A stretch of DNA of 34,438 nt from Eubacteriaceae bacterium (GTDB lineage Bacteria > Bacillota > Clostridia > Eubacteriales > Eubacteriaceae), in the NCBI GenBank assembly GCA_030156895.1, contig JASGLP010000028.1, positions 1 through 34,438 on the forward strand, in the 5' to 3' direction. The translations under genes were made by a program, and so were the position numbers. Numbering within the stretch: the stretch's first letter is position 1; the number at the start of each line of letters is the position of its first letter. Of this stretch, positions 2,128 through 29,718 are shown piece by piece. Below the pieces are notes generated by a model. It had not been told where the DNA came from and searched no databases. It was given only the letters and a program-made list of their open reading frames with translations.

Positions 2128-3552
2128 ATGGAAGAGCTGTTTACAGGAGAATCCAAAAACATTGAATATAAAAGGGAAATACCAAGAAATAGTGCCAAAT
2201 ATATGAAAACAATCGTTGCCTTTGCCAACGGAAAGGGTGGGAAAATTGTTTTTGGTATTGAGGATCAAACCGGTGAAATTATTGGAATAGACCGGGATGT
2301 TGTCTTTCAGCAAATGGATGCCATTACCAATGCGATTTCCGATAGCTGCCAGCCGACAATTATTCCAGATGTTACTTTGCGCACTATTGAGGATAAAACA
2401 ATGATTGTTGTGGAAATCACTGCCGGAAGACAGCAGCCCTATTTTATTAAAGCACTTGGTTTACAGGCAGGCACCTACATTAGAGTTGCCGGTACAACTC
2501 GGCCTGTCGAGGACTACATGTTAAAGGAATTAATCTTACTGGGACAGAATCGTCATTATGATCAGGAACCATGTGAAAATATTAGTGTGACGAATGTCGA
2601 AATTGATCAGCTATGTGAGAATTTAAAGCATGTCGCAATCAAAAATACGCGTTCAGATGAAGATATATCACAGGTTAGGGATATTTCTAAAAATACGCTG
2701 TTAACGTGGGGTCTTCTAACAGAAATTAATGGAAAACTTATCCCGACTAAAGCTTTTACACTTCTTTCTGAACAATTTACCACCTCACCTCTTATCCAGT
2801 GTGCCATTTTTAAGGGAAGAGATCGTTCTGTATTCGTAGATCGGCGTGAAATAAGCGGTCCAATTCAGGATCAGGTTGAAGGTGCCTTCCAATATATACT
2901 GGAAAAAATAAACCTCGGTGCCCAAATTAAAGGCTTATATCGACATGACATTTACGAACTGCCAATTGGCAGTATTCGCGAATTGATTGCTAATGCTGTG
3001 GCACACCGATCTTATCTGGAACCGGGAAATATTCAGGTTTCCTTATATGATGATCGGCTGGAAATTACTTCTCCAGGAATGCTTTTAAATGGTGTTTCCA
3101 TTGAAAAGATGAAACAGGGCTATTCCAAAATCAGGAATCGCGCAATCTGCAATGCTTTTTCTTATATGAAAATTATCGAACAGTGGGGAAGTGGGATTCC
3201 CAGAATTATAAATGAATGTAGTGAATATAGTCTAAAAGAACCAGAACTGATTGATCTGGATGGTGATTTTCGGGTGAATTTGTATCGGTTGAGCCTTTCA
3301 ACATCTGTCCAAACAAACCAAACAAACCAAACAAACCAAACAAACCAAACTCTATTGTCTGAACCGGAAACAGCCCTCTTAAAACTGATTGAAGGTCATC
3401 CCAAAATGACGAATGCAGAAATGGCACAAGAACTGCAGTGGAACATCAGTAGGGTCAAGTATTATTTACAGAAAATGAAAAAAGATGGTCTAATTCAACG
3501 TTTTGGAACTGTCCATAATGGTTACTGGAAAGTATATAGTCCACTTACATGA
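2128..3552 (+). CDS. AlbA_2 (Schlafen-type AAA_4) / RecG-like ATP-binding transcriptional regulator
   Basis: A 474-residue protein. The N-terminal 130 residues carry the AlbA_2/Schlafen-type domain (GESKNIEYKRE, then AFANGKGGKIVFGIED). A central-to-C-terminal GHKL-like region follows (IRELIANAVAHRSY, DDRLEITSPG, IEQWGSGIPRI), and the protein ends in a winged-helix domain (MTNAEMAQELQWNISRVKYYL). This is the architecture usually annotated as 'ATP-dependent DNA helicase RecG-related' or 'divergent AAA' regulator; helicase motifs are absent. A TNQ tripeptide repeat joins the last two domains. The start at 2128 follows AAAGGAG; an ATG at 2092 has no ribosome site. A 62-bp direct repeat lies on each side, suggesting the gene moved or duplicated as a unit. 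The DNA or RNA target is unknown. Confidence 0.8.
   Translation: MEELFTGESKNIEYKREIPRNSAKYMKTIVAFANGKGGKIVFGIEDQTGEIIGIDRDVVFQQMDAITNAISDSCQPTIIPDVTLRTIEDKTMIVVEITAGRQQPYFIKALGLQAGTYIRVAGTTRPVEDYMLKELILLGQNRHYDQEPCENISVTNVEIDQLCENLKHVAIKNTRSDEDISQVRDISKNTLLTWGLLTEINGKLIPTKAFTLLSEQFTTSPLIQCAIFKGRDRSVFVDRREISGPIQDQVEGAFQYILEKINLGAQIKGLYRHDIYELPIGSIRELIANAVAHRSYLEPGNIQVSLYDDRLEITSPGMLLNGVSIEKMKQGYSKIRNRAICNAFSYMKIIEQWGSGIPRIINECSEYSLKEPELIDLDGDFRVNLYRLSLSTSVQTNQTNQTNQTNQTLLSEPETALLKLIEGHPKMTNAEMAQELQWNISRVKYYLQKMKKDGLIQRFGTVHNGYWKVYSPLT
3311..3350 (+). repeat. In-frame 9-bp microsatellite (TNQ repeat)
   Basis: Four full copies of AAACAAACC plus a partial copy, encoding TNQTNQTNQTNQT in the linker of the AlbA_2 protein. 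The unit is a multiple of three, so copy-number change alters linker length without breaking the frame. Confidence 0.9.
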
Positions 3553-3583
3553 GGCAAGACTGATGAAGATATGCAAACACACA

Positions 3584-3620
3584 GGGTCGGTGGTGTTGTG
3601 CACTTTGAGCCCACCGACCC
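3584..3620. terminator. Strong intergenic hairpin after the AlbA_2 gene
   Basis: A perfect 10-bp stem pairs GGGTCGGTGG (3584-3593) with CCACCGACCC (3611-3620) around a 17-base loop. There is no T-run, so it may act in mRNA stability or be part of the repeat element rather than an intrinsic terminator. Its left arm overlaps AGGGTCGGTG, which is also present at 1963-1972. Confidence 0.5.
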
Positions 3621-3666
3621 GGTGATAGAAACCTCTGTGGGACGTCAAACTTTCGTACTGGATCCC

Positions 3667-3728
3667 AACTTCGTTCGAATATGTCTGATTGAACATAGCC
3701 CCGAATACCGGGAGAAATATATGTAGCT
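3667..3728 (+). repeat. 62-bp direct repeat, right copy
   Basis: Second copy of the repeat at 2000-2061, in the same orientation, with two substitutions. It lies just upstream of the Nim-type flavoprotein gene. Confidence 0.9.
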
Positions 3729-3765
3729 GGCTATCGATAAAAAAACTAAACTTTGGAGGACAAAC

Positions 3766-4245
3766 ATGTTTCCTGAAATGAGAAGATTTAAACAGCAAGT
3801 GTCAGAAAGTGACTGCCAGAAAATATTAACAGAAGAAAAAAGAGCGGCATTTTCAGTGATCGACCATGACGGCTATCCCTATACAATCCCCATCAATTTT
3901 TACTATGATGAAAATGATCATCGGATTTACCTCCACAGCGCCAAAGCAGGACATAAAATGGATGCCCTCAAAAACTGCGATAAGGTCTGTTTAACGACCT
4001 GGAATCAGGGCTTTAAAAAAGATGGCGACTGGGAGTGGAATGCCACCAGTGTGGTGGTTTTTGGTAAGATAAAATTTGTCGAAGACCAAAAGCTTATCAG
4101 CGATCGACTAAGAAAGATGGCCAGCAAATATTATCCAAATCAGGCCGAAGTTGAAGCCGGGATGACAAGTCCGGCCTTTAATCATGTTCAAATGCTGGCA
4201 ATCGAGATCGAACACATGACCGGCAAACTAGTCAACGAAAAATAA
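3766..4245 (+). CDS. Pyridoxamine 5'-phosphate oxidase-like flavoprotein (NimA-type)
   Basis: A 159-residue protein of the PNPOx-like split-barrel family, the NimA-related group that typically begins MF.EMRR.KQ. Family features seen are the FSVIDHDGYPYTIPINFYYD strand pair (residues 26-45), the IYLHSAKAGHKMD flavin-binding segment (residues 51-63) and SVVVFGKIKFV. Relatives bind FMN or similar cofactors, and some reduce nitroimidazoles; the substrate here is unknown. The start is fixed by TTGGAGGA before the ATG. It ends 41 bases before hsdM in the same direction, so they could share a transcript, though the functional link is unclear. Confidence 0.85.
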   Translation: MFPEMRRFKQQVSESDCQKILTEEKRAAFSVIDHDGYPYTIPINFYYDENDHRIYLHSAKAGHKMDALKNCDKVCLTTWNQGFKKDGDWEWNATSVVVFGKIKFVEDQKLISDRLRKMASKYYPNQAEVEAGMTSPAFNHVQMLAIEIEHMTGKLVNEK

Positions 4246-4286
4246 GCGCCACCCCAACTTCACCCCAACTGAGAAAGGAATCAACC

Positions 4287-5885
4287 ATGTCAGAAAACTT
4301 GCAATCCATCACATCCAAACTCTGGGCCATGGCCAACGAACTGCGGGGCAACATGGACGCCGGAGAATTTAAAAACTACATCCTGGCCTTTATGTTCTAC
4401 CGCTATCTGTCCGACCATCAGGCCCAATATCTGCAGTCCAACCACGTCCTCGATCTACATGACGGCCAATCCCTCAATCAAGCCTACCAGGAGCAAGCCA
4501 AGGGGGAGGATCTGGCCGATTATCTGGATGATATCTCATCAAGCCTGGGCTACGCCATCGAGCCCCAGGACACCTGGGCGTCCCTGATCGAAAAAATCAA
4601 TAACAGCCAGGTCATTCCCTCGGATTACCAGACCCTCTTCGATCACTTTAACAAAAACGTGGAGTTAAACAAGGACGGCGCCCAGGATTTTAGGGGGGTC
4701 TTTAACGATATCAATCTGGGCGATTCAAGACTGGGTTCATCCACCACGGCCCGGGCCAAATCCCTCAACAATATCGTCAAGCTGGTGGATACCATCGACT
4801 ATCACAACCAGGATGGCCGCGATATTCTGGGCGAAATCTACGAGTACCTGATCGGTCAGTTTGCCGCCTCGGCCGGAAAAAAAGGGGGAGAGTTCTACAC
4901 CCCTCACCAGGTCAGCCGGATTCTGGCCAAGCTGGTCACCGTCAACCGCAGCCTGACGGAGGGGTCTTTTAGCCTCTATGACCCGACCATGGGCTCGGGC
5001 TCGCTTTTGTTAACCGTCCGCAATGAGCTGCCCGGGGGCGATCAGACCGGGGCCATTAAATTCTATGGCCAGGAATTAAACACCACCACCTACAATCTGG
5101 CGCGGATGAATCTGATGATGCACGGCGTTTCCTACATCAATATGACCCTCCACAATGCCGATACCCTGGAGGATGACTGGCCGGACGGTCCCGATGCCCA
5201 AGGCATCGATCATCCCCGCAGCTTTGATGCGGTGGTGGCCAATCCGCCCTATTCAGCCAAATGGGATAACGACCCCCGTAAACTCAAAGATCAGCGCTTT
5301 CAGGAATTCGGCAAGCTGGCGCCGGCCTCCAAAGCCGATTACGCCTTTATCCTCCACAGCCTCTATCATTTAAACAATGGCGGCACCATGGCCATTGTCC
5401 TGCCCCATGGGGTCTTGTTCCGGGGGGCGGCGGAAGGGGAAATCCGCAAACAACTCATCGCCAAGAATGCCCTGGATGCAGTGATCGGCTTGCCGGCCAA
5501 TCTCTTTTATGGCACCTCCATCCCCACCACTATTCTGGTCTTTAAGAAAAACCGGCCGAGCAAGGATATCCTCTTTATCGACGCCAGCCAGGATTACGAA
5601 AAGGGCAAGAATCAGAACAATCTCTCTGACGCCAATATCGATAAAATCATCGACACCTACAAAGCCCGCCAGGATGTGGAAAAATACGCCCACCTGGCCG
5701 CAATTGAAGAAATCGAAGACAATGATTTTAACCTCAATATCCCCAGATACGTAGACACCTTTGAGGAAGAAGAAGCAATCGACCTGGATCAAATCAATCG
5801 CCTGCTTAAAGAAGACGATCTGGCCATCGCTAAGCTGGAGCAGGAGATTAATGAACAGCTTAGGATGCTTGGGGTTGAGGTGTAA
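4287..5885 (+). CDS. hsdM: Type I restriction-modification DNA methyltransferase subunit
   Basis: A 532-residue HsdM. The N-terminal helical HsdM_N domain (about residues 1-150) is followed by the N6-adenine methyltransferase fold. It has GGEFYTPHQVSRIL near residue 200, the AdoMet motif DPTMGSGSLLL starting at D232, and the catalytic NPPY at 319-322. Length and motifs are complete, so the enzyme looks intact. It needs HsdS to choose a target and HsdR to cleave, and neither lies in this window; the next gene is a TerB-type protein. The codons are clearly more GC-rich than in neighbouring genes (many GCC, CTG, GGC, ATC), which suggests separate acquisition. The start follows GAAAGGAA. It may methylate with a distant HsdS or be a relic of a lost operon. 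Confidence 0.95.
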   Translation: MSENLQSITSKLWAMANELRGNMDAGEFKNYILAFMFYRYLSDHQAQYLQSNHVLDLHDGQSLNQAYQEQAKGEDLADYLDDISSSLGYAIEPQDTWASLIEKINNSQVIPSDYQTLFDHFNKNVELNKDGAQDFRGVFNDINLGDSRLGSSTTARAKSLNNIVKLVDTIDYHNQDGRDILGEIYEYLIGQFAASAGKKGGEFYTPHQVSRILAKLVTVNRSLTEGSFSLYDPTMGSGSLLLTVRNELPGGDQTGAIKFYGQELNTTTYNLARMNLMMHGVSYINMTLHNADTLEDDWPDGPDAQGIDHPRSFDAVVANPPYSAKWDNDPRKLKDQRFQEFGKLAPASKADYAFILHSLYHLNNGGTMAIVLPHGVLFRGAAEGEIRKQLIAKNALDAVIGLPANLFYGTSIPTTILVFKKNRPSKDILFIDASQDYEKGKNQNNLSDANIDKIIDTYKARQDVEKYAHLAAIEEIEDNDFNLNIPRYVDTFEEEEAIDLDQINRLLKEDDLAIAKLEQEINEQLRMLGVEV

Positions 5886-5897
5886 GGGGAGAATAAG

Positions 5898-5921
5898 TGA
5901 TAATTATCTATTTAATTATCA
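5898..5921. other. AT-rich hairpin after hsdM
   Basis: TGATAATTA (5898-5906) pairs with TAATTATCA (5913-5921) over a 6-base loop. A possible mRNA 3' structure or operator; it has no T-run. Confidence 0.4.
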
Positions 5922-5956
5922 TACAGGTCAGTGACACGTGGTGCAGATGTGATAAC

Positions 5957-5985
5957 TTGACTGTCGACCACCCCGAAACTATAAC
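5957..5985 (+). promoter_or_regulatory. Promoter of the TerB/ATPase/helicase operon
   Basis: TTGACT (5957-5962), a 17-base spacer, TATAAC (5980-5985). Transcription would start near 5992, leaving a very short leader before the ATG at 6004. It indicates that the three-gene operon is transcribed independently of hsdM. Confidence 0.65.
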
Positions 5986-6003
5986 CCAGAAAGAAGGCTT
6001 ACT

Positions 6004-7989
6004 ATGAATCTTAAAGATAAAAAACTGCCCGGCATAGCCATGCGGATTCTCTCTTTCGTGCCGGTCATTAATTGTTTTATCATCATCTACCTGGGCATGA
6101 ACTACGCCGAGAAGTTCACCTTTATTCTTGGTATTGCCTACTTTCTCATTTCGGCTATTTTCCCGGATATTTCTCCGATTATCTGGCTAATTTGTGTGAT
6201 TCATTATATAATTTTCTATAATCAACTTAAAAAGAAAATAGCGGAGGCCAAGAAAATACCAACGAATAATTCAGCTGCCAAAACACAACAAAGCAATTTA
6301 AATAATCGTCAATCCTTCTCCGATGTCACCATATCGGGAACATCAGAAAACAGGCAGATGATTCCTCAAAAAGGTTCTGAAACAATTCCCTTATCAGTAT
6401 CCTTCCAAAATCCGCGCGACAATTTTTTCGAAGAAATGAAAAGTCTGGCGGATCGAGAAGGCGATGAAGCGCCATTCGTACCCTTTATGTCATACTGGCC
6501 AACTTATCAGAGCATGTCAGATGCTCAAAGTAAATGGTACTTTTACTGGCGGTCTCAAATTCGCAAGAAAAACTATCTTAAAACTGATTTGTCCTATATT
6601 TTTATTTATGTCTATGAACTTTTAAACGGCATCGGTTATCAAACACCTGCTGAAGGTTACACCTTATTAATTGAGATCTGGCAGGCCTATCGGGAAGATT
6701 TTCCTAAGCTAAATACCTATTTATATGACTGGTCATTCGACTTCGCTTACTTAAATGATATCGACCTGGAATCTGCCAATTATGAGAATGCTTTACATAA
6801 ACCATCCTATGTAACTGATGTAATCATTGGTCAGCATCTTGATGATGTTCCGCTCAAACTTACCCTGGAAATGATTGACACTTTGTGCGATTATTCAATT
6901 ACCGGCAGCAAATTTTATCAAAGCGGTCATCACGAAGTGATCAAAGAGGCAATTCCTCGGATTGTCTCACTAGCAGATGCTCTTTCAAGGAAAAAAAGCC
7001 AAAAGGGTCTTTTAGAAAGCTATGGTCCTGAACAGACAGTCACAAGAGAACTTTATCTATTTAGAAGCGCCCTTTGCCCCAATGCCAATCAGACCATTAA
7101 AGTGACGGTTTTAGAGTATTCATCAGCTCCCCAGCTAAGAAATTATATCAATCAGCTGGTTCGTTTTGGGGAAAATAGCCTGCGAGAAATTTACCAAGCC
7201 AAAGGTCGCTTGCGGGGTATTGAGATGGATGAGGAAACCGGCAATCTGATTGCGGCCTTTCTGAAAAAAGAATACGGCTTATCTGAAAACAAAGAAAGCG
7301 GTCCGACCAAAGCAGCCCCCCTTGAACTGGATTTTGAAAATATCGATGACCTTCGTAGGCAGTCCGATGTGGTGCGGTCTATCTTGCATGTGGAAGATAC
7401 ACCGGGCGTAATTGCAGACGTACCAAAGGAAAAGGATCTGTTAACCGAAGTCGACGAAATGATTGTTATTTACAAAGCGCTTTCTGAAGATGAAAGAGCC
7501 TTTCTGCAAAAGCTCTATGAGAATCATTACGAATCTGAATTTGAAGCAGCAGATAATCAAAGGATTTCTTCAATCAACCGTTTGGCGGATCGGTATTTGC
7601 AAAATGATTTAATCAGCATCGAAGGAAGTCTGATCATTATCGAAGATGACTTTAGAGATGAAATTGATCATGTGTTCAAAAATCCGCCAGAGATTGAAGC
7701 AGAAAAGCAGACTGATTTTGACAATACTCAATTACCGGAAAATTTTCAGGAATTTGTTGCCCAACTCTTGCCTGAACAGCGGCAAAGCTTAATTGCCATT
7801 TTGACACTGACAGAACCCCAAAATGAACTGAAACGAATTGCGGATGAGGCAATGACAATGCCGGAATTATTAATCGATGATATTAACGCGCTGGCCATTA
7901 ATAGCCTTGGGGATATTATGATTGAAGCCCAGTTTGAGCTTGTCGATGAGTATGCGGTTATCTTGAAAAAATCATTAAGAGGAGAATAA
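6004..7989 (+). CDS. Membrane-anchored TerB_N/TerB_C domain protein
   Basis: A 661-residue protein. Two or three hydrophobic helices lie at residues 9-75, then a polar linker. A TerB_N domain covers about residues 137-265, with the typical FMSYWPTYQSMSDAQSKWYF, YWRSQIRKKNYLKTDLSYIF and YELLNG.GY..PAEGY..L pattern. A LDFENIDDLRRQS linker occurs near 442. The C-terminal part (about 515-661) is TerB_C-like. TerB-type proteins are linked to tellurite and stress response and, in this domain combination, to predicted DNA-processing systems together with a P-loop ATPase and an SF2 helicase, as here. The next gene starts 3 bases after its stop, so the products probably work together. The membrane helices suggest a sensor or anchor role, which is inference. 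Confidence 0.8.
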   Translation: MNLKDKKLPGIAMRILSFVPVINCFIIIYLGMNYAEKFTFILGIAYFLISAIFPDISPIIWLICVIHYIIFYNQLKKKIAEAKKIPTNNSAAKTQQSNLNNRQSFSDVTISGTSENRQMIPQKGSETIPLSVSFQNPRDNFFEEMKSLADREGDEAPFVPFMSYWPTYQSMSDAQSKWYFYWRSQIRKKNYLKTDLSYIFIYVYELLNGIGYQTPAEGYTLLIEIWQAYREDFPKLNTYLYDWSFDFAYLNDIDLESANYENALHKPSYVTDVIIGQHLDDVPLKLTLEMIDTLCDYSITGSKFYQSGHHEVIKEAIPRIVSLADALSRKKSQKGLLESYGPEQTVTRELYLFRSALCPNANQTIKVTVLEYSSAPQLRNYINQLVRFGENSLREIYQAKGRLRGIEMDEETGNLIAAFLKKEYGLSENKESGPTKAAPLELDFENIDDLRRQSDVVRSILHVEDTPGVIADVPKEKDLLTEVDEMIVIYKALSEDERAFLQKLYENHYESEFEAADNQRISSINRLADRYLQNDLISIEGSLIIIEDDFRDEIDHVFKNPPEIEAEKQTDFDNTQLPENFQEFVAQLLPEQRQSLIAILTLTEPQNELKRIADEAMTMPELLIDDINALAINSLGDIMIEAQFELVDEYAVILKKSLRGE

Positions 7990-7992
7990 ACA

Positions 7993-9327
7993 ATGGCCCC
8001 TTCCATTAGCCGCCGTGAATCCGGCGCATTAATTAATTCGCTGACTGCTGGTGTGGTTCCCAGAATTGGGCTACGTCATATTGCCGTTGGCCGGCAAAAT
8101 GAAGTCAACGCTTTTTTGAACGATATGAATACCATCGAAGATGGCGGTGCCTCTTTCCGATTAATATCGGGACAATACGGTAGCGGGAAAAGTTTTCTGC
8201 TGCAGATGATTCGCAATAACGCCATGGAGAAGAACTTTGTTGTTGCCGATGCAGATCTTTCACCAGAGCGAAGGCTGACCGGTTCAAAAGGGCAGGGGCT
8301 TTCAACCTATCGTGAGTTACTCCAGCATCTTTCCACACCAACAAGACCAGATGGCGGATCGCTGGAAGCGATATTGCAAAAATGGATCATGGGACTCCAG
8401 TCAGCTGTCAGCAAGAAAAATGGCTTTAAACCCGGCGAGCCTCAGCTAGTTGGCGCCGTCAGTGAGCGTATTGCCGAGATGATGATGGAATTATCGGAAT
8501 TGTCCTACGGTTTTGCCTTTGCCAATGTCCTGGATGCCTACTGGCGGGGAATGAAAACGGATGATGACGCCCTCAAACAAAATGCCCTGCGCTGGCTAAG
8601 GGGCGAATATGCGACCAAAACGGAAGCCAAAAAGGAGTTGCCGGTTGATCGCATTATTGATGATGCGAGCTGGTATGAATTTTTAAAACTGTTTGCTGTC
8701 TTTGTTAAAAAGGCGGGCTACAAAGGTTTGCTGGTTTTTCTGGATGAAGGCGTCAACCTATATAAAATTCCCCATAAACAGGCGCGAGATAGCAACTATG
8801 AAAAACTGCTGACCATTTTTAATGATACCATGCAAGGTAAAGCCCAGAATATTGGCGTTTTTTTAAGCGGAACCCCGCAGTTTATTTACGATGAACGGCG
8901 TGGTCTTTTTAACTATGATGCCCTGCGGACTCGGCTGGAAGACAACCGCTTCAGCAGCCAGAATTTTGTTGATTTTACCACCCCAGTCATTAAATTAAAG
9001 CAGCTCTCGCCAGAAGAGATATTTATTCTGCTGGAACGTCTTTGTGAACTCCATAGTAGCCACTACGATTATGACTGCACATTGGGCAAGGATCAATTAA
9101 CTGCTTTTTTAAACACGGTACTTTCCCGCTTGGGAGCCGATCAGTTACTAACACCACGTGAAATTACTCGTGATTTTCTGGGATTACTCAATATCCTGCA
9201 GCAAAATTCGAATATTACATTCGCAACCTTAATGGACGAACAGAATTACTCTGTCAAAAGTGCTGATGAGGATCCCGAAACAATCAGCTCTGATAATGAT
9301 GATCTCTTTGCTGAGTTTGACATATGA
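7993..9327 (+). CDS. BrxC/BrxD-family (DUF2791) P-loop ATPase
   Basis: A 444-residue ATPase of the DUF2791/BrxC_BrxD group. The family N-terminus is clear (residues 1-50, with SRRESGALINSLTAGVVPR and RHIAVGRQNEV). Walker A is GQYGSGKSF at residues 60-68, and Walker B is LLVFLDEG with D251 and E252. The SGTPQF segment resembles a sensor-1 region. In type 2 BREX the related BrxD is encoded beside an Lhr-like helicase (BrxHI), the same pairing as here. The ribosome site AAGAGGAG lies in the end of the terB gene and the stop overlaps the helicase start (ATGA), so translation is coupled. It probably loads or regulates the helicase on DNA, which is inferred from the pairing. Confidence 0.88.
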   Translation: MAPSISRRESGALINSLTAGVVPRIGLRHIAVGRQNEVNAFLNDMNTIEDGGASFRLISGQYGSGKSFLLQMIRNNAMEKNFVVADADLSPERRLTGSKGQGLSTYRELLQHLSTPTRPDGGSLEAILQKWIMGLQSAVSKKNGFKPGEPQLVGAVSERIAEMMMELSELSYGFAFANVLDAYWRGMKTDDDALKQNALRWLRGEYATKTEAKKELPVDRIIDDASWYEFLKLFAVFVKKAGYKGLLVFLDEGVNLYKIPHKQARDSNYEKLLTIFNDTMQGKAQNIGVFLSGTPQFIYDERRGLFNYDALRTRLEDNRFSSQNFVDFTTPVIKLKQLSPEEIFILLERLCELHSSHYDYDCTLGKDQLTAFLNTVLSRLGADQLLTPREITRDFLGLLNILQQNSNITFATLMDEQNYSVKSADEDPETISSDNDDLFAEFDI

Positions 9328-11507
9328 GCAAGTCAGCCTTTGAACGATACGCTCCCTTTATTCAGGAATACATCTATCGAAAAAAATGGACGGATTTGCG
9401 GGAAGTCCAGGTTGAGGCCTGCGAAGTGATTCTGGACACTGACGATCATGTCATAATTGCTTCGGGAACGGCATCGGGAAAAACGGAAGCCGCCTTTTTT
9501 CCGATACTGACTCAGTTGCAGCAGGCACCGTCAAACACCATTGCGATTATGTATATTGGGCCGCTTAAGGCTTTAATCAATGATCAGTTTGAGCGTTTGA
9601 GCGATCTGTTGGAAGAAAGTGACATGCCGGTTTGGCCCTGGCATGGGGATGTGTCCCAATCGCTGAAAAAACAGGCGCTAAATAAAGCCAGGGGTGTTTT
9701 GCAGATCACGCCCGAGTCGCTGGAAGCACTGATTATGCGTCGCCCGGGAGATGCTGCCCGCTTATTTGCCGATTTGCGTTTTGTCGTCATTGACGAAATT
9801 CATGCCCTGATGGGGGCCGACCGCGGCTTACAGGTGATCTGCCTCTTAAGCCGTCTGGAAAAACTGACAGGCTGTAAACCCAGAAGAATCGGTCTTTCCG
9901 CCACGCTAAACGATTATAAACCAGCAGAAATTTTTTTATCGGCCGGGACAAAACGTGAAACCCTGTCGGTGGGAATAAAAATCCATCAACGAACCATTTC
10001 CCTGGCTGCTCAAAGTTTTGTCCTGCCAGCAGAGGATGACAAAAGAGATGAGGTTTTAGAGCAGTATAATGAATTTCTCTATGACCATTGTCATGATAAA
10101 AAATGCCTGATTTTTACGAACAGTAGAGCCGATGCCGAAAAAGTGATCAACGATATGAAAGAGCTGGCGGTTAACAAGCATGAACGGGATGTCTTCTTTG
10201 TCCATCATGGCAGTGTTTCAGCCATGCTGCGCCATGAAGCTGAGGCCGCCCTCAGAGAACATCAGGGGCCAACCGTCACCGCGGCAACCCTAACACTAGA
10301 GCTGGGTATTGATGTCGGTGATCTGGATTCGATTATACAAATCGGGGCGCCCTTTAGTTGCTCAAGTTTTGTTCAGCGTCTGGGGCGGTCGGGAAGACGC
10401 ACCGGAAAATCTAAAATGCTCTTTGTTAATCAGTTTGAAGAAGACCGGCACAGTCCCTTTGAGATGATTCCCTGGGATTTGCTTCGAACAATTGCGGTCA
10501 TTCAATTGTATCTGGAAGAACACTGGGTAGAGCCATTTGAGGTTAAGCCAAAACCCTTTAGTTTACTTGCACACCAGACTTTAAGCACCCTCTTCACATA
10601 TGGGGAACTCCAGCCTGCCGATTTGGCAAGAAATGTCCTGACCATGCCACCCTTTGCGGAAATTGATCAAAATGAGTATCGATTATTGCTACAAAAAATG
10701 ATTCAAGAAGACTATCTGCAGAGAATGGATTCGGGCGAAGTCATTATCGGTTTAAAAGGCGAGAAAATTGTGCAGCATTTCAGCTTTTACGCAGTCTTTC
10801 AGGATGAGCAAGTTTACCACGTTTTTAGCCAGAGTGGTGAAATCGGTACTTTAAGCAATTGCCCTGCCGTTGGTGAAGTGTTTATTTTAGCCGGCCGCAG
10901 CTGGCAGGTTTCTTCCATCGATGAAGAGCGAAAAATGATCTACGTCAAGCTGGTGAAAAATAACCGGATTCCCAAATGGATAGGAGATCACGCCGGCTTG
11001 ATTCATACCAAAATTGTTAAACGGATGAAGCAGGTTTTACAGGAAGAGACAATGTATGCCTATCTTCAGCCGGGTTCACAGGAGCTCTTAAATAAAACCC
11101 GCAATTTTGTTAAAGAAAATTACATTTTAGACCGGGATTTTATTCCCGCCAGTACAAAATCATTTTATCTGTGTCCATGGGTGGGGTCAAGAGAGCTTTT
11201 TACCATTAACAATCTGCTCTTATGCGGTCTAAAGGATGATCTACAGATTTACACCATTAGACAGGGGAAGCATTACCTTGAAATTAGAAGCGGTTTGAGC
11301 GTTGATGATTTTAAAGCAGCTTTAAACAAAACATCAATTGCTATCGACGATCCAAACCAGGTAATCCCCGATCAACAACCATTAAGAATGGATAAATACG
11401 ATTATATGGTACCAAAAGACCTGCTCAGAGAAGCATTTTTAAGAAATGTGCTTGATGTTAGAGAAGCACAAAGGATTTTGAAGGATAACACCTTCGTTGC
11501 AAGGTGA
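9324..11507 (+). CDS. DEAD/DEAH-box SF2 helicase, Lhr/BrxHI-like
   Basis: A 727-residue superfamily 2 helicase. It has motif I ASGTASGKTEA (A46 to A56), motif Ia YIGPLKALINDQ, motif II DEIH at 157-160, motif III GLSATL and motif VI QRLGRSGRRTG at residues 351-361. A C-terminal half of about 330 residues is typical of Lhr-like and BrxHI-type enzymes. It overlaps the ATPase gene by 4 bases. No nuclease domain is evident, so it probably remodels or translocates on DNA as part of a complex with the BrxD-like ATPase and the TerB protein. The reading frame ends just before a protein-like segment in another frame (11503-11667), so a natural or artefactual frameshift at the very end is possible. Confidence 0.92.
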   Translation: MSKSAFERYAPFIQEYIYRKKWTDLREVQVEACEVILDTDDHVIIASGTASGKTEAAFFPILTQLQQAPSNTIAIMYIGPLKALINDQFERLSDLLEESDMPVWPWHGDVSQSLKKQALNKARGVLQITPESLEALIMRRPGDAARLFADLRFVVIDEIHALMGADRGLQVICLLSRLEKLTGCKPRRIGLSATLNDYKPAEIFLSAGTKRETLSVGIKIHQRTISLAAQSFVLPAEDDKRDEVLEQYNEFLYDHCHDKKCLIFTNSRADAEKVINDMKELAVNKHERDVFFVHHGSVSAMLRHEAEAALREHQGPTVTAATLTLELGIDVGDLDSIIQIGAPFSCSSFVQRLGRSGRRTGKSKMLFVNQFEEDRHSPFEMIPWDLLRTIAVIQLYLEEHWVEPFEVKPKPFSLLAHQTLSTLFTYGELQPADLARNVLTMPPFAEIDQNEYRLLLQKMIQEDYLQRMDSGEVIIGLKGEKIVQHFSFYAVFQDEQVYHVFSQSGEIGTLSNCPAVGEVFILAGRSWQVSSIDEERKMIYVKLVKNNRIPKWIGDHAGLIHTKIVKRMKQVLQEETMYAYLQPGSQELLNKTRNFVKENYILDRDFIPASTKSFYLCPWVGSRELFTINNLLLCGLKDDLQIYTIRQGKHYLEIRSGLSVDDFKAALNKTSIAIDDPNQVIPDQQPLRMDKYDYMVPKDLLREAFLRNVLDVREAQRILKDNTFVAR

Positions 11508-20249: not shown

Positions 20250-20327
20250 TTACGAATGACTGTTTAAGTGCCATTAGCCAATGCCATTTATATAGCCACC
20301 ATTCAATTCTTATTAGGAAGGTTTTTC

Positions 20328-21329
20328 ATGCAAACATACCAGGATGATATTGCATTACTTGTAACCACTTATCTAGACGCCTATTTTTTAAAACGAGACT
20401 TTCATGAAACAATGAAGCTGTTTGGTAAACCGCTGACCGGATTTGGAACTGGCTTAAGCGAAAATGCTTTTCAATATGATGACTTTATTCGTCTTTTTAA
20501 AAGGGATTTTGCAGAAGCCCCGGAAAAAATAGACTACGACATTACGCAGATGGTTACCCATCAAATCAAAAAAGATCTTGCGACAGCCGCCTGTCAGTTA
20601 AACATAAAAACCACTATCATGAATCAGGAGGTCAGATTTAATTTTTTTCGACTCAGCCTGATTTTTACAAAGACCGATCAGACCTGGCTGATTCATCATA
20701 TGCATATCTCGCTTCCCACCGATGCCCACGAAAAAGATGAATCCTATCCGATTAAAGAGCTGGAAGAACGCAATCTGCTACTGGAAAAGCTGGTAGAGGA
20801 AAAAACTAGGAGTCTGAATCAGGCCTTAAAACAGATCAGTGAATTAGCGGTAACCGACAAATTAACGGGTACTTTCAATCGCAACAGGATCGAAGAAGAC
20901 TTAAAGAAAGAAATTCAGCTGGTCAATCGCTATCACAATCAATTTTCCATCATCCTGATCGATATCGATCATTTTAAAGAGATTAATGACAGCCACGGCC
21001 ATATGGCGGGGGACAACATGCTCAAAGAATTTGCCACGATCCTGAAAGACAACATCCGCGAAACAGATTTATTTGGCCGTTGGGGAGGAGAGGAGTTTCT
21101 GATCATCTGCCCCGAGACCGATATTGCTGATGCCTGCAATCTGGCCGAAAAACTGCGTGATGCCATTGCTACTTATCCCTTTACGATTAAAAATAAAACC
21201 GCCAGTTTTGGTGTTGCCGCCTGTCTGGCGAATGATAATTACGACAGCCTGATCAATCGCGCCGATCAAGCCCTCTATAACTCGAAGCGACAGGGGCGAA
21301 ACCGTGTCAGTGTCGCACAAAAAAGTTAG
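20328..21329 (+). CDS. Diguanylate cyclase (GGDEF) with NTF2/SnoaL-like N-terminal domain
   Basis: A 333-residue soluble protein. The N-terminal ~145 residues look like an NTF2/SnoaL-type alpha-beta cone (YQDDIALLVTTYLDAYFLKR, then TWLIHHMHISLP at the end). A short coiled coil (about 148-175) links to a GGDEF domain with LTGTFNRNRIEEDL, LIDIDHFKEINDSHGH, the active signature GGEEF at 253-257, and an intact inhibitory-site motif RETD at 244-247. It should synthesise cyclic di-GMP from two GTP and be product-inhibited. AGGAAGG sits 6 bases before the ATG at 20328. An upstream in-frame ATG at 20268 lacks a ribosome site. A terminator follows. Confidence 0.92.
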   Translation: MQTYQDDIALLVTTYLDAYFLKRDFHETMKLFGKPLTGFGTGLSENAFQYDDFIRLFKRDFAEAPEKIDYDITQMVTHQIKKDLATAACQLNIKTTIMNQEVRFNFFRLSLIFTKTDQTWLIHHMHISLPTDAHEKDESYPIKELEERNLLLEKLVEEKTRSLNQALKQISELAVTDKLTGTFNRNRIEEDLKKEIQLVNRYHNQFSIILIDIDHFKEINDSHGHMAGDNMLKEFATILKDNIRETDLFGRWGGEEFLIICPETDIADACNLAEKLRDAIATYPFTIKNKTASFGVAACLANDNYDSLINRADQALYNSKRQGRNRVSVAQKS

Positions 21330-21568: not shown

Positions 21569-22480
21569 ATGGAAAAAGAAAAAGTTATCGCCATCGAAGC
21601 ACAAATCAATAAACTCTTTTCTCCGGAATACGCCATCGTCAAAACGCTTGGTTCGGGCGGAATGGGCTGTGTTTTTCTGGTGTGCCATCAGGATCAGACC
21701 CTTTATGCCCTAAAAGTGCTGGAAAAAGCCGCCTATAAAAAAAATAAACTAAATGAAATGGGGGAAATCACCGCTTTACAGGCGCTGTCCCATCCCAACA
21801 TCCCTGATCTTTTTGAAATCACTGAAGATGACAATTACATTTATATGCGTCAGGAATATATTAGCGGCAAACCCCTTAATCAGATATTGCGAAAGAAAAA
21901 AACCATCGAACCAGCATGTCTGTCAGCATGGATGCAAAGCACGGCCGAGATCTTGAGCGATCTCCACCAGCAGGGTTACATCCATCGGGATATCAAACCC
22001 GATAATCTCATGCTCACTGATGATCAGTGTATCCGCATGATTGATTTTGGTCTGGCTCGCCAAATTGGGGTCACAGACCAGGCTGACCGACGGGTTTTTG
22101 GTACTCTTTCCTACACAGCGCCTGAGCGGTTTGACCGCAAACCGGCAACGGTCCAGACCGATATCTACGGTTATGGCGCAACCATGTATCAATTAGCAAC
22201 GGGTATCAAACCTGAAAACATGAAAACTGATCCTCAAAAAAGCATCATTATTATTGAAGAAAAGCTTTCCCAAGCCGTGCCTTCCGACCTTTCCCTGGTC
22301 ATTCGCAAAGCCATGGCAGTTAATGAAAAGGGGAGATATAAAAGTTTCAAGGCTTTGCTTTGGGATCTTAATCATCCTGATCTGATCATCAGCCCGGAAC
22401 AGGAAATTCAAAATATCCGAGTCAGTGCCCTGTTTATCATCGTAACAGTCCTTTTCCTGATTGGACTGACAACATTATAA
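21569..22480 (+). CDS. Hanks-type serine/threonine protein kinase with C-terminal membrane anchor
   Basis: A 303-residue kinase with all catalytic motifs. They are the glycine loop LGSGGMGCVF (27-36), Lys49 in ALKVL, HRDIKPDN (139-146), DFG at 159-161 and a GTLSYTAPE activation segment (178-186) with Thr179 and Thr183 as likely phosphorylation sites. It ends in a hydrophobic helix (residues 284-302) with almost nothing beyond, so it is tail-anchored and, unlike PrkC/PknB, has no PASTA or other external sensor. The ATG at 21569 has no good ribosome site, and the in-frame upstream TGA rules out an earlier start. It heads a three-gene operon with a double-FHA protein 18 bases downstream, its probable partner. 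Confidence 0.93.
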   Translation: MEKEKVIAIEAQINKLFSPEYAIVKTLGSGGMGCVFLVCHQDQTLYALKVLEKAAYKKNKLNEMGEITALQALSHPNIPDLFEITEDDNYIYMRQEYISGKPLNQILRKKKTIEPACLSAWMQSTAEILSDLHQQGYIHRDIKPDNLMLTDDQCIRMIDFGLARQIGVTDQADRRVFGTLSYTAPERFDRKPATVQTDIYGYGATMYQLATGIKPENMKTDPQKSIIIIEEKLSQAVPSDLSLVIRKAMAVNEKGRYKSFKALLWDLNHPDLIISPEQEIQNIRVSALFIIVTVLFLIGLTTL

Positions 22481-22498
22481 AGAGAGAATGGTGAAGTT

Positions 22499-23413
22499 AT
22501 GAAAGACAAGCAAGTGCCAATCGAGACCGATTTATTTCTGGTCGTCGATGGAAAAGAACATGAACTAAAGTCCAGCCCCTTTGTGCTGGGTCGCGACCCC
22601 CTGACCAGTGACCTGTGCCTGAATCAGAAAACGATTAGTCGCAAACACCTTGAACTCAGCTCTACGGATGGTCGTTGGTATGCAGAGGATCTTAATTCCA
22701 GTGCCGGCACCGTTCTTAACGGGGTTAAGATGGATTCCGGCCGTAAACTGGAAATTGTTGCCGGTGATTTTCTGGAACTGTCCGATGTCACCATCACGCT
22801 ACAAAGTCATAGCAATGCAAGCATAAAAGACGCATCGATCGACCCTCAAACCAGTAATTCGGCTGCCCAGATCAACCTGGTTAGAGCCAATCTGCGCCTG
22901 TTTCTGGCGGAAACAAAACTTGACAGCCAGAATCTGAACCGTCTGTCAGCACTGATTGATTCGGTCATTTTATATAATGGGGATGGTCGTCTTTTAAACC
23001 ATGTTGTTGCTGAAATCATCAGCGAAAAAAGTCCAGCTCAAAAACCGCTTCAGACCGCGACAGCACCAACCCCGATCAAAAACCAGCCACCGGCTGCTAA
23101 AAACGCCCCTCAAAAATTACCGGTTTTCCATCCGGTCAAGGTCGAAGGGGAGTGGAAGGAAATTCCCGTCACCAAGATTCCCTTCACCATCGGTCGCGGC
23201 CCGGAAAATGTCGATTTTGTCCTGAGTGCCAAAGGTGTCAGCCGATCCCATTGCCTGGTCAGCTGTCATGACGGCTCCTACCATATAACCGATCTGGGTT
23301 CGATCAATGGCATTTTCTTAAATAAAAAACAGCTCAAGCCCAATGACCATTATCCGATCAAAAACGGTGACTCAATCAGCCTTGGTATTAACCAGTTTTA
23401 TGTTGAAATTTAA
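22499..23413 (+). CDS. Double FHA-domain phosphothreonine-binding protein
   Basis: A 304-residue protein with an FHA domain at each end. The first (about 10-100) has G31-R32, SRKH at 47-50 and NG at 74-75. The second (about 215-304) has GRG with R233, SRSH at 248-251 and NG at 270-271. All key phosphothreonine-contact residues are present in both. The middle (about 100-215) is a helical stretch followed by a Pro/Ala/Gln-rich linker. No membrane segment is seen. It lies 18 bases after the kinase and 17 bases before a membrane protein rich in Thr motifs, so it should act as a bridge that reads phosphothreonines made by the kinase. Binding both partners at once is inference. Confidence 0.92.
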   Translation: MKDKQVPIETDLFLVVDGKEHELKSSPFVLGRDPLTSDLCLNQKTISRKHLELSSTDGRWYAEDLNSSAGTVLNGVKMDSGRKLEIVAGDFLELSDVTITLQSHSNASIKDASIDPQTSNSAAQINLVRANLRLFLAETKLDSQNLNRLSALIDSVILYNGDGRLLNHVVAEIISEKSPAQKPLQTATAPTPIKNQPPAAKNAPQKLPVFHPVKVEGEWKEIPVTKIPFTIGRGPENVDFVLSAKGVSRSHCLVSCHDGSYHITDLGSINGIFLNKKQLKPNDHYPIKNGDSISLGINQFYVEI

Positions 23414-23430
23414 GATAAGAGAGGGATAAG

Positions 23431-24852
23431 ATGAAAAAGACAGAAGCATTTACATCTCAAACAGATGAGACCGAACAGGAAGATCTCCAAGCTAAAAACG
23501 ATCCTGAAAACAATCAGACAGAGACAAATCCGTCTGACCAGGTGGATGAAGTACAGGAGGCTGATCAGTCTACAACAGAAAAGATCGCAGATTCACAGTC
23601 AGATTCAGACACAGGCATTTCTGAAACCAGCGATCAGGAAACTGCGGATTCTATCGATGAAGAAACCGCCGCCCTGATCAATGAAGAAACTGAGGCCTTA
23701 ATCTCCGAGGAAACCGAAGCCCTGGTCATTGAAACCACAGCGGCTCTCATCTCTGAGGAAACCGAAGCCTTGGTCATGACTGATCCCTATGTTATTGAAA
23801 GAACCGAATCACTGATCACCAGCCCAAATAAATCGGGTAAAAGTAAAAAAACGGCACTCATCATCGGTTCCCTTGTACTGGGCATGCTTTTAATTGGCGG
23901 TTCGGTTGTCGGTTATTCGGCTTACGAACAAAAACAGCTGGATGAGCAAATCGCTGCTGCCATGGAAACAGGCTCATCCCTCATGGCCGCTGGCCAATAC
24001 AGTGATGCCATCGTCGCCTATGAAAACGTCAGCGCCCTGGATGCCGACAACACTGAGGCCATCTACGGCAAAGCTATGGCTTATACTGCAATGGGTGATT
24101 ATGGCAACGCCCGAACTTACTATGAGGAAGCCCTCAAACAAAGCACTGAAATTGAAGATATGAAAGTGATTTACAATTCTTACATTGATTCCGAAGTCAG
24201 CGCCCAGGTACCGGAAGAAAGCCTCTTTGCCCTGATGGAACGAGCCGCCAAAGAAACCGGCGACGAAGCCTACATCAAACGTAAAGGCGAATTTATGGTC
24301 AAAGCGCCGGGCTTCAATCTCAATCCTGGCTCCTATCAAGGCGCACAGTCGGTTGATATCATTAAAGGTGACGGCGCCGATCGGGTCTTTTATACGCTTG
24401 ACGGCTCAGAACCGACGACTGCTTCTGCCGAATACGTCAGCACCATTGCTCTCAATCCAGGCGAAACAACTGTTAAAGCGATTGAGGTCGGAGTTAATGG
24501 ATATGCCAGTGAAACCGTTACAGGAACATATTTTATTGAGGAGACCAGCGAGGTTAAATTTGAAAATAACATCTCCGGTTCCTGGTCATCACGCTCCGGC
24601 TCATATCTGTATCAGTATTATTTCAGTGATGGATACGTGACTTATTCCTATACCTCTTCCAGTGGCACTACATATTCCTACAGCGGTAACTACACCATTA
24701 CAGGCGTTAACCAAAACGGTACCATCGGAACCTTGTCAGTCTTTAACACCTCCAGCAGTTACGGTATTTCCAGTACCATCAATATCAACTGTGAACCCCT
24801 GGGCGATAATATGATTTCTATTAATAACAAGGGGTACAGCTATAATCCCTGA
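23431..24852 (+). CDS. Membrane TPR protein with cytoplasmic T-x-x-L repeat array
   Basis: A 473-residue protein. Residues 1-135 are acidic and Ser/Thr-rich. They include five tandem 8-residue units (77-116; EETAALIN, EETEALIS, EETEALVI and so on), plus another TESL at 125-128. One transmembrane helix lies at about 141-164, preceded by the basic KSGKSKK, which puts the array in the cytoplasm and the rest outside. Outside are TPR-like repeats (about 165-250), a chitobiase/CHB_HEX_C_1-like beta domain (about 295-375, with VFYTLDGSEPTTAS) and a Tyr/Ser-rich C-terminus. It is the last gene of the kinase-FHA operon, ended by the terminator at 24860. The array is a likely kinase substrate and FHA docking site. 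Confidence 0.75.
   Translation: MKKTEAFTSQTDETEQEDLQAKNDPENNQTETNPSDQVDEVQEADQSTTEKIADSQSDSDTGISETSDQETADSIDEETAALINEETEALISEETEALVIETTAALISEETEALVMTDPYVIERTESLITSPNKSGKSKKTALIIGSLVLGMLLIGGSVVGYSAYEQKQLDEQIAAAMETGSSLMAAGQYSDAIVAYENVSALDADNTEAIYGKAMAYTAMGDYGNARTYYEEALKQSTEIEDMKVIYNSYIDSEVSAQVPEESLFALMERAAKETGDEAYIKRKGEFMVKAPGFNLNPGSYQGAQSVDIIKGDGADRVFYTLDGSEPTTASAEYVSTIALNPGETTVKAIEVGVNGYASETVTGTYFIEETSEVKFENNISGSWSSRSGSYLYQYYFSDGYVTYSYTSSSGTTYSYSGNYTITGVNQNGTIGTLSVFNTSSSYGISSTININCEPLGDNMISINNKGYSYNP
23659..23778 (+). repeat. 24-bp in-frame tandem repeat encoding the T-x-x-L array
   Basis: Five units of 24 bases encode 8-residue repeats with Thr at residues 79, 87, 95, 103 and 111, each followed at +3 by Leu. 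Codons differ between units, so the protein pattern is better conserved than the DNA, which suggests selection on the peptide motif. Confidence 0.85.
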
Positions 24853-28122: not shown

Positions 28123-29718
28123 ATGAAGAAAATTTTACCTTTACTACTATTATCAATTTTGATAATTTGTGAATTTTTGCCCATTTCAGCACAAACTTCA
28201 CCCAATTTGTCTTATCAGACCCACGTTCAATATGTCGGTTGGCAGAATCTGGTCAATATTGGAGAGATGAGCGGCACCAGTGGGCAGAGTCTTCGACTGG
28301 AAGGAATCAAAATCAATCTTGACAACGCTGGCTATGATCTAGGCATTTCATATCAAACCCATATTCAGAATATCGGCTGGGAAGAAGGCAGCAGTGGCTG
28401 GAAAACAAGTGGCCAGATGAGTGGTACTGAAGGTTTGTCTTACCGTCTCGAAGCAATCCAGATCAAGCTCACCGGAGCGGATGCCGATCTCTTTGATATT
28501 TATTATCAGGTTCATGCCCAAAATGTCGGTTGGATGGGATGGGCTAAAAACGGAGAGAGTTCGGGGACTGCCGGTTACTCATACCGGCTTGAAAGTATTC
28601 GCATTGCTATCGTTGCCAAAGGTGAAAGTCCACCGGCAACCACGATCAATAATACAAGTGCTTTTATCGAAAAAAAATCGGTTTCTGGAAATCTGTTACT
28701 GAATGATTCTACAGCAGAATTTGACGATTACGCCTTGGGCCTTGACTCAGTTATCCTAACAGATGACGGTATTACGCTCGATCCCAGTGCTTATATCGGC
28801 GTATATACATCAGTTGAAATGAAAACGCAGGCCTTTAACAAGATGGTCTGTTCCTGGAATGTCACGACCCCGGAAAACTCCCTGATTCAGCTTGAAGCTC
28901 GGGTTTACACCAGTTCTGGCTGGTCAAACTGGTTGTCTTGGGGGCAATGGGGGACAAATATCCAAAGACTATCCGGTACCGGTACCACCAGCGACGCCAT
29001 TGCCAGCGTTGATGTCGATACGCTGCAGGTTAATAATGGGCTTACTGCTACAGGTCTTCAGTATCGGGTGATACTTCTTTCACCACGAGCTGGTGTAACA
29101 CCAACTGTATCTCTAGTTGCTGCCGCCCTGAGAAACACCATAACTCCAATTAGTAAGACTTATACCGATAATCCAGATTTGACAAATTTATCGATTCTCG
29201 CTGTACCGCTGCTTTCACAAATGATTCGTGATCCAGCCATTGCTGATTCGATTTGCAGTCCCACCAGTATGGCAATGATTCTCAACTATTACGGCACAAA
29301 TGTCACACCGGAAACGGCCGCCTGGGGAATTTATGACTATGATTATAAAGATTTTGGTAACTGGCCATTTAATACCGCTTATGCAGGCAGTCTTGGTTAT
29401 CAGTCCTATGTCGATTACTCTACCATCGACGGTCTTAAACGAGAAATCGCCGCCGGTCACCCGGTTGCAGTTGCAGTAGCCTATAAGAATAGCGCTTCCG
29501 TTTCCGGCAATCTGCCTGTTGTCGATGGGGCACCGATTTCCTCAACCGCCGGTCATTTAATTGTAGTTTGTGGATTTACAAACATCAGTGGGGTAGAATA
29601 TGTAGTGATCAATGATCCTGCCGCTAGTTCTGATACGGGTGTCAGAGTTTATTACCGCCTGGATCAGTTTTCAAATGCCTGGGCGCAGTCCGGAAATATC
29701 GCTTATATCGTTAAATAA
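28123..29718 (+). CDS. Secreted ChW-repeat protein with C39-like peptidase domain
   Basis: A 531-residue exported protein. A signal peptide (MKKILPLLLLSILIICEFLP, cleavage near residue 24) is followed by three ChW repeats (about 31-66, 77-116 and 128-164) with the YQTHVQ..GW, GTSGQSLRLEGIKI pattern that binds cell surfaces in clostridia. A beta-rich spacer of about 190 residues comes next, then a Peptidase_C39_2-type papain-like domain with Cys378 in ICSPTSMA, His478 in GHLIVVCGF and Asp498 in INDPA. All three catalytic residues are present. It probably cleaves peptides at the cell surface. It lies 18 bases after the nitroreductase, without a visible ribosome site. Confidence 0.88.
   Translation: MKKILPLLLLSILIICEFLPISAQTSPNLSYQTHVQYVGWQNLVNIGEMSGTSGQSLRLEGIKINLDNAGYDLGISYQTHIQNIGWEEGSSGWKTSGQMSGTEGLSYRLEAIQIKLTGADADLFDIYYQVHAQNVGWMGWAKNGESSGTAGYSYRLESIRIAIVAKGESPPATTINNTSAFIEKKSVSGNLLLNDSTAEFDDYALGLDSVILTDDGITLDPSAYIGVYTSVEMKTQAFNKMVCSWNVTTPENSLIQLEARVYTSSGWSNWLSWGQWGTNIQRLSGTGTTSDAIASVDVDTLQVNNGLTATGLQYRVILLSPRAGVTPTVSLVAAALRNTITPISKTYTDNPDLTNLSILAVPLLSQMIRDPAIADSICSPTSMAMILNYYGTNVTPETAAWGIYDYDYKDFGNWPFNTAYAGSLGYQSYVDYSTIDGLKREIAAGHPVAVAVAYKNSASVSGNLPVVDGAPISSTAGHLIVVCGFTNISGVEYVVINDPAASSDTGVRVYYRLDQFSNAWAQSGNIAYIVK

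Follow-up and report, generated by a model that had tools for sequence, protein, structure and literature searches.

A putative phosphothreonine docking platform in Acetobacterium: a kinase, a double-FHA protein and a membrane protein with a conserved T-x-x-L array

GarA and OdhI each have a single FHA domain and, in the N-terminal part of the same protein, an acidic ETT-type motif with a hydrophobic residue at +3, which is bound in cis. In eukaryotes, the TQ clusters of Rad9 and MDC1 are phosphothreonine sites read by FHA domains, and consist of irregular TQ sites on soluble scaffolds. OdhI is phosphorylated by PknG at Thr14 (PMC2784874; the papers cited by PMC number are drawn on in excerpt). 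The ligand classes of FHA domains include pTxx[I/L/V] (PMC8786283), and the PknA-dependent sites of M. tuberculosis favour acidic residues before the Thr and Leu or Val at +3 (PMC7164672). A survey of type VII secretion system (T7SS) variants names the proteins TseK/TsjK and TseJ/TsjJ, describes TseK as a single transmembrane helix with a short unstructured cytoplasmic stretch, mentions DUF6382, and raises threonine phosphorylation as a form of T7SS regulation, with no target motif named in the excerpt (PMC11217815). The subject of this report is a three-gene operon in a 34,438-nucleotide stretch of DNA, referred to here as the window, which spans all of contig 29 in the genome of an acetogenic Acetobacterium (GCA_030156895.1; 3.0 Mb, 101 contigs, 85% complete). 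The products of the operon are a Ser/Thr kinase, a double-FHA protein and a membrane protein with a regular array of T-x-x-L motifs in its cytoplasmic tail (Table 1).

The gene order kinase, double-FHA protein, membrane protein had been proposed in an earlier note made from the sequence alone, and it is borne out by three plus-strand frames with Pfam matches to Pkinase, FHA, TPR and CHB_HEX_C_1. The gaps between the genes are only 18 and 17 bases. The array is present exactly as that note had described it, with six T-x-x-L motifs in the tail, five of them at an exact period of 8, and the predicted TPR/CHB_HEX-like domain of the same protein was recovered by Pfam. Shuffling of residues 1-135 gave six motifs in 0 of 20,000 cases, and three motifs at period 8 also in 0 of 20,000. 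Both the site preference of PknA and the published FHA ligand class match the motif, and therefore the same residues would suit the writer and the reader of a phosphorylation mark. The operon is probably a membrane-bound phosphothreonine docking platform, in which the array would be written by the kinase and read by the FHA protein; phosphorylation, binding by FHA2, multivalency, direction and output are all deduced parts of this proposal.

Five sister operons were found (L066-L070), and the relatives of the array protein include those of Acetobacterium dehalogenans DSM 11527, A. fimetarium DSM 8238 and two Acetobacterium metagenome-assembled genomes. The five proteins match that of the window at 58-64% in the genome search and are 56-59% identical to it in the alignment. 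When all six array proteins are aligned, the Thr is kept at 36 of 36 motif sites and the +3 Leu likewise at 36 of 36, so that the conservation across homologous operons on which the earlier note had staked its proposal is complete in these six genomes. The Thr is never Ser, Val or Asp at any of these sites. Each site uses two to four different Thr codons and two to three Leu codons across the six orthologues, which indicates that the pattern was held through synonymous change and is not a fresh duplication. Together with the shuffles, this codon drift rules out chance or low complexity as the origin of the array. Positions -1 and +4 vary, with E, K, Q, A, T, R or N at -1, and only M1, K3, T49 and E50 are conserved in the first 76 residues of the tail. 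The number of acidic T-x-x-L motifs per tail is 6, 7, 9, 7, 8 and 8, so repeat number does vary among homologues, a matter that the earlier note had raised. The extra distal motifs of the sister tails are irregularly spaced, and A. fimetarium (G016) has one unit of 9 residues; since the unit spacing is not rigid, linear motifs fit these tails better than a fixed fold.

Four residues in the phosphopeptide-binding loops, Arg, Ser, His and Asn, form the canonical phosphothreonine-binding set of FHA domains, and the Asn matters. In FHA2 these residues (R233, S248, H251 and N270) are invariant in the seven sequences compared. The description of the protein as having two intact FHA domains therefore holds for FHA2 and fails for FHA1, where the canonical Asn is replaced by Ala in three of the seven sequences, including that of the window, and by Ser in four. 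FHA2 is consequently the candidate standard reader. No second FHA protein was found in the source genome at its 85% completeness. Near its start the window protein has the sequence E-T-D-L-F, and the six sister proteins have K-S-D-L. Against the OdhI model NF041660 the protein scores 55.6 bits (cut-off 200), and with two FHA domains it falls outside the GarA/OdhI family. A sequence search of the PDB with the FHA protein returned RNF8 and 1uht, and a search of the PDB with the FHA profile gave no match at strict cut-offs. The AlphaFold model (predicted local distance difference test score, pLDDT, of 54) is too poor for an analysis of the +3 pocket.

The kinase has no external domain, because its sequence stops at a hydrophobic segment at about residues 285-303; the suggestion that it lacks an external sensor thus stands, as nothing follows that segment. 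It is not a PASTA kinase of the PknB/PrkC/Stk1 type, since NF033483 gives 162.7 bits against a cut-off of 450 and only positions 2-267 of 563 in the model are matched. The kinase had no match in the PDB by sequence at strict cut-offs. Orthologues with 46-54% identity occur in eight other Acetobacterium genomes, and two of the genomes without an FHA gene, G008 and G017, still carry the kinase, which must therefore have other work as well.

The distribution of the genes was followed in 19 Acetobacterium genomes, including the source genome. The FHA gene is present in seven, and six of these also have the array protein. In the seventh (G015) the array gene is missing from the data because the contig of 29,067 bases ends just past the FHA match, which itself ends at 28,972. 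In the 12 genomes that lack FHA no array protein was found, and all matches there were either short or to paralogues of at most 45% identity; several genomes are incomplete (a few of those without FHA are 81-86% complete), and absences of array and FHA are thus not certain. Genome G008 appears to have lost the FHA, array and carboxypeptidase genes while the kinase gene stayed. In its decayed operon (L211, G008:C20:134000-147000, 5853-7218) the kinase is intact and the FHA gene is gone, what is left of the array protein is its C-terminus, in a frame of 44 residues, and an 87-residue frame retains the two ends of a VanY-type protein from which the catalytic part has disappeared; it is from the intact kinase beside these remnants that the loss is read.

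Among the open reading frames (ORFs) of the five sister operons, the one after the array gene encodes a D-Ala-D-Ala carboxypeptidase of the VanY type with a membrane anchor. The A. fimetarium gene, the one submitted to Pfam among the five, matches PF02557 at 2.5e-43. In the window, no VanY-type frame is present in the DNA after the array gene. The VanY-type gene, last in the sister operons, hints at peptidoglycan as the output of the system.

Paralogues of the array protein with a zinc ribbon and TPR repeats have the sequence E-K-T-E-S-L-V before the transmembrane segment in L071 (G003, 3919-5307) and L234 (G001, 3534-4936), the latter protein being split over two frames. The motif is present in the paralogues of G001 and G003, which have FHA, and absent from those of G010, which also has FHA, and of G005, G007, G012 and G018, which do not. 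The paralogue of G002, another genome without FHA, has the degenerate G-K-T-D-S-L-G. With this mixed outcome across genomes with and without FHA, these paralogues were rejected as a clean control.

According to the mechanism proposed for the platform, the tail-anchored kinase would phosphorylate the Thr of the acidic E-x-T-E-A-L motifs in the cytoplasmic tail of the membrane protein, and each pThr-x-x-Leu would become a site for the canonical FHA2. In this way, the number of phosphorylated sites would determine how many copies of the cytosolic FHA protein are brought to the membrane. Because FHA2 has the full signature and FHA1 does not, one standard contact per FHA protein is proposed, with several FHA proteins per tail, rather than two equal contacts; FHA1 or the linker may hold a partner or make a second contact. 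The TPR/CHB_HEX ectodomain would couple the platform to something outside the cell, and the signal may pass inwards, from ectodomain to kinase, or outwards, with the kinase as its source and the ectodomain and VanY at the receiving end.

It is also possible, although unlikely, that the array serves as a structural element or simply as a charged tail, such as an acidic amphipathic helix, a spacer or a coiled coil, with Thr and Leu kept for packing and not for phosphorylation. The units are acidic and regular, and AlphaFold models residues 76-113 as one helix at pLDDT about 40, in a model of the array protein (pLDDT 52) of which only the TPR part is confident; a sequence search of the PDB with this protein likewise returned TPR proteins. 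However, position -1 varies freely while the helix-disfavouring Thr is fixed, the spacing of 8 is broken by a 9 and by irregular distal copies, single copies occur in sister genera, and the array protein tracks the FHA gene. These points count against a packing role.

A second alternative, which appears improbable, is that the phosphorylated array mainly buffers or regulates the kinase, as a substrate sink or by docking it at the platform, and that the FHA protein mainly reads the kinase or another partner. The persistence of the kinase in G008 and G017, where FHA and array are absent, and the non-canonical FHA1 would agree with this, but FHA and array otherwise co-occur and are absent together, with the kinase as the exception, and the ligand class pTxx[I/L/V] matches the motif (PMC8786283). 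Phospho-independent docking, as when EssC FHA domains without a binding site interact with the EssB pseudokinase, presumably with no phosphorylation (PMC11217815), is very unlikely here, given the full phosphothreonine signature of FHA2 in 7/7 sequences, the catalytic residues of the operon kinase and a Thr that none of the 36 aligned sites replaces with Ser, Val or Asp. The phosphothreonine platform is the preferred reading for the Acetobacterium operon.

Outside the genus, related motifs occur as single copies. An FHA match was present in 11 Eubacteriaceae genomes other than Acetobacterium, and eight of them (all except G022, G033 and G034) supplied 11 FHA loci; the control was 418 kb from G021, G028, G033 and G036 of the same family, with no sequence from G023 or G031. 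Among proteins with one or two transmembrane segments, an E-x-T-E-x-L in the tail before the membrane was found in 8/34 at the FHA loci versus 0/68 in the control (p 8e-5, a kind of value that is optimistic because the expression was fixed after the loci had been seen). An initial TExL tail test had given 9/20 versus 0/68, or 8/18 when L082, from a genome in which no FHA was found, is left out. The strict-motif rate differs modestly, at 0.65 per 1000 residues in FHA loci versus 0.38 in controls (p 0.018). The single copies are E-K-T-E-E-L-L, E-N-T-E-E-L-L and E-K-T-E-P-L-V in G023, E-V-T-E-D-L-T and E-E-T-E-D-L-L in G021, and E-V-T-E-D-L-L, E-V-T-E-Q-L-L and E-P-T-E-D-L-N in G031. The membrane proteins that carry them differ in architecture, and the motif lies in a short tail before the transmembrane segment; a small protein of G021 ends in E-E-K-T-E-K-L. 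An expression for kinases matched in two of the six loci with such a tail (L081 and L083; the remaining four lie on short contigs or at the end of a contig) and in none of the five without it.

In 391 genomes of the class, a profile of the array protein (A1) matched strongly in G000 and G001 alone; the genomes listed for this sample include four of Acetobacterium. Five further genomes match weakly (E 2e-4 to 0.009) and were judged unrelated from their open frames alone. The survey of FHA neighbours put forward in the earlier note came out in part: related motifs lie beside FHA or kinase genes outside the genus, and the array in the same form was not found there. A wide spread of the array in its Acetobacterium form is not borne out by this search.

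Arrays of a second kind are found in proteins that are called TsxK-like here from their gene position and architecture. In G145, one FHA locus codes for a kinase whose C-terminal part is long and, next to it, for a protein of 240 residues that crosses the membrane once and has eight T-x-[VI]-L motifs. Searching the 391 genomes with this protein and then with a four-row profile gave ten TsxK-like proteins in nine genomes, with G180, G229 and G430 left out (E 0.003-0.007, open frames that looked unrelated). Seven of the ten were matched outside the motif region, two (G394 and G360:C11) across it, and one (G145) had been picked by the motif. Their tails hold 31 acidic T-x-x-L motifs, one to eight each, against a shuffled mean of 3.8 and a maximum of 13 in 5,000 shuffles. 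Two of the ten are from G360; the first has five T-E-[LV]-L at an exact period of 7 and the second six T-x-[LV]-L at wider spacing. The two TsxK-like arrays of one genome adjoin FHA, kinase and phosphatase-like genes.

All ten TsxK-like genes have a kinase gene next to them, identified by signature or Pfam. With a home-made FHA model, an FHA protein was found near six of them (L150, L161, L162, L163, L230 and L231), and none within the 16 kb taken at L227, L228, L229 and L232. Several FHA proteins of these loci have T-T-V-L-type motifs just ahead of the FHA domain. At one locus, L231, Pfam confirmed an EssC-type ATPase (FtsK_SpoIIIE, together with PP2C, kinase and FHA). In L227, L228 and L232 the phosphatase-like, kinase and TsxK-like genes stand in a row with one to three motifs, and among these PP2C was confirmed by Pfam only for L227. 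A protein resembling a protease was also noted, whose cytoplasmic FHA end could be under phospho-control.

These patterns give about even odds to a broader proposal, in which an acidic T-x-x-L in a single-pass tail would be a general and portable phospho-address of the Clostridia, written by the neighbouring kinase and read by FHA proteins. Copy number would be an evolvable gain setting: a single copy in a number of other Eubacteriaceae, between six and nine in Acetobacterium and one to eight in TsxK-like proteins. In T7SSe- and T7SSj-like loci the code would supply the connection between the kinase and the FHA components of the secretion machine, and unlinked proteins could join it, the example being the E-K-T-E-S-L-V of the zinc-ribbon paralogue in G001 and G003. 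The proposal is drawn from sequence patterns in a modest sample.

Several observations weigh against the platform or its extension. To the non-canonical FHA1, the incomplete genomes and the late choice of the E-x-T-E-x-L expression may be added the decay of the distal extra copies in the sister tails, with Thr replaced by Ile in G010 and Leu by Gln in G001 and G003. G025 has an E-T-T-E-E-L-L tail, yet no FHA gene was found in this 87% complete genome. At five of the 11 Eubacteriaceae FHA loci the tail motif is missing (0/16 proteins), and TExL occurs in 0/109 proteins with one or two transmembrane segments at 31 other loci (L086-L096 and L137-L156, those five included); the motif is thus not a property of all FHA loci. 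A generic test for two or more motifs within 60 residues gave no enrichment (3/358 ORFs at FHA loci versus 2/205 control ORFs). In the excerpts available, no significant motif is reported for PknB (PMC7164672) and the C. difficile phosphoproteome gave no specific kinase signature (PMC9674922).

Table 1. Features of the operon, with positions in the window
Feature	Position	Strand	Basis
Ser/Thr kinase, 303 amino acids, tail-anchored, no external domain	21569..22480	+	Pfam PF00069 1.2e-48; HRDIKPDN and DFG in sequence
Kinase transmembrane segment	about 22421-22477	+	hydrophobic segment, about residues 285-303
Cytosolic protein, two FHA domains and linker, 304 amino acids	22499..23413	+	PF00498, two stretches, 3.3e-35
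FHA1: R32, S47 and H50 kept; Asn of S-x-N-G replaced by Ala	22583..22780	+	alignment of 7 sequences
FHA2: full phosphothreonine signature	23186..23386	+	alignment of 7 sequences
Single-pass membrane protein, 473 amino acids: acidic cytoplasmic tail with array, transmembrane segment, TPR, CHB_HEX_C_1, C-terminal beta region	23431..24852	+	sequence, Pfam, model
Six T-x-x-L motifs (T79, T87, T95, T103, T111, T125), residues 77-128	23659..23814	+	sequence and orthologue alignment
Transmembrane segment, about residues 140-162	23848..23916	+	hydropathy; helix in model at low confidence
TPR repeats, residues 181-238	23971..24144	+	Pfam; confident part of model
CHB_HEX_C_1 / Fn3-associated domain, residues 298-364	24322..24522	+	PF13290 1.1e-12

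Upstream of the kinase gene by 239 bases, on the same strand, lies a SnoaL_3-GGDEF diguanylate cyclase gene (20268-21329). Further upstream, three adjacent genes (6004-11507) match SngA, SngB and SngC in PADLOC (E 1.6e-83, 3.8e-188 and 2.6e-233), which are presumably the Shango anti-phage system. Directly before them is a Type I methyltransferase gene (4287-5885; N6_Mtase 8.4e-112), in a stretch whose G+C of 0.51 is clearly above that of its flanks at 0.40, and which was perhaps acquired. The operon itself was considered as a defence system and rejected, since among the matches listed by PADLOC (25 of 34) the window kinase hits kinase models only, and there is none for the FHA or the array protein.

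No description of a T-x-x-L array of this kind was found in the literature searched, which was available in part, and the sequences point to a docking code with a recurring Thr motif that is undescribed there. GarA/OdhI with PknG/PknB in Actinobacteria is similar in that a Ser/Thr kinase writes an acidic Thr motif with a hydrophobic +3, which an FHA domain then reads, but there a single motif lies on the FHA protein, whereas here six lie on a separate membrane protein. The kinase-TsxK-TsxJ/FHA modules of T7SSe and T7SSj also have a kinase beside a single-pass protein with a cytoplasmic tail, often with FHA nearby (PMC11217815); in TsxK, however, the transmembrane segment precedes the tail motifs, and in the window protein it comes after them. 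The TsxK profile (A6) has no match in G000 or G001, which places the window protein outside TsxK by similarity, and neither an FtsK/EssC-type nor a phosphatase gene was found among the 20 of 28 window ORFs submitted to Pfam. If the code is real, two questions could be put to experiment, namely which partners are bound by FHA proteins at clostridial kinase loci and which role TseK/TsjK, so far little characterised, plays in T7SSe and T7SSj, and E-x-T-E-x-L or T-x-V-L tails would offer a sequence handle for finding more targets.

In the A. tumefaciens type VI secretion system, a membrane kinase phosphorylates a membrane protein, an FHA protein binds and the system is activated (PMC11217815), which resembles the proposed order of events; that system is a secretion machine, unlike this one, and a repeat array is not mentioned in the excerpt. 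Rad9-Rad53, MDC1 and TIFA (for TIFA, PMC8786283) share with the operon the reading of phosphothreonine sites by FHA domains in assemblies, but belong to eukaryotic DNA damage or immune signalling and use soluble scaffolds. If the proposed mechanism holds, the Acetobacterium operon would provide bacterial FHA signalling with a multivalent membrane scaffold comparable to these eukaryotic phospho-arrays and variable in copy number.

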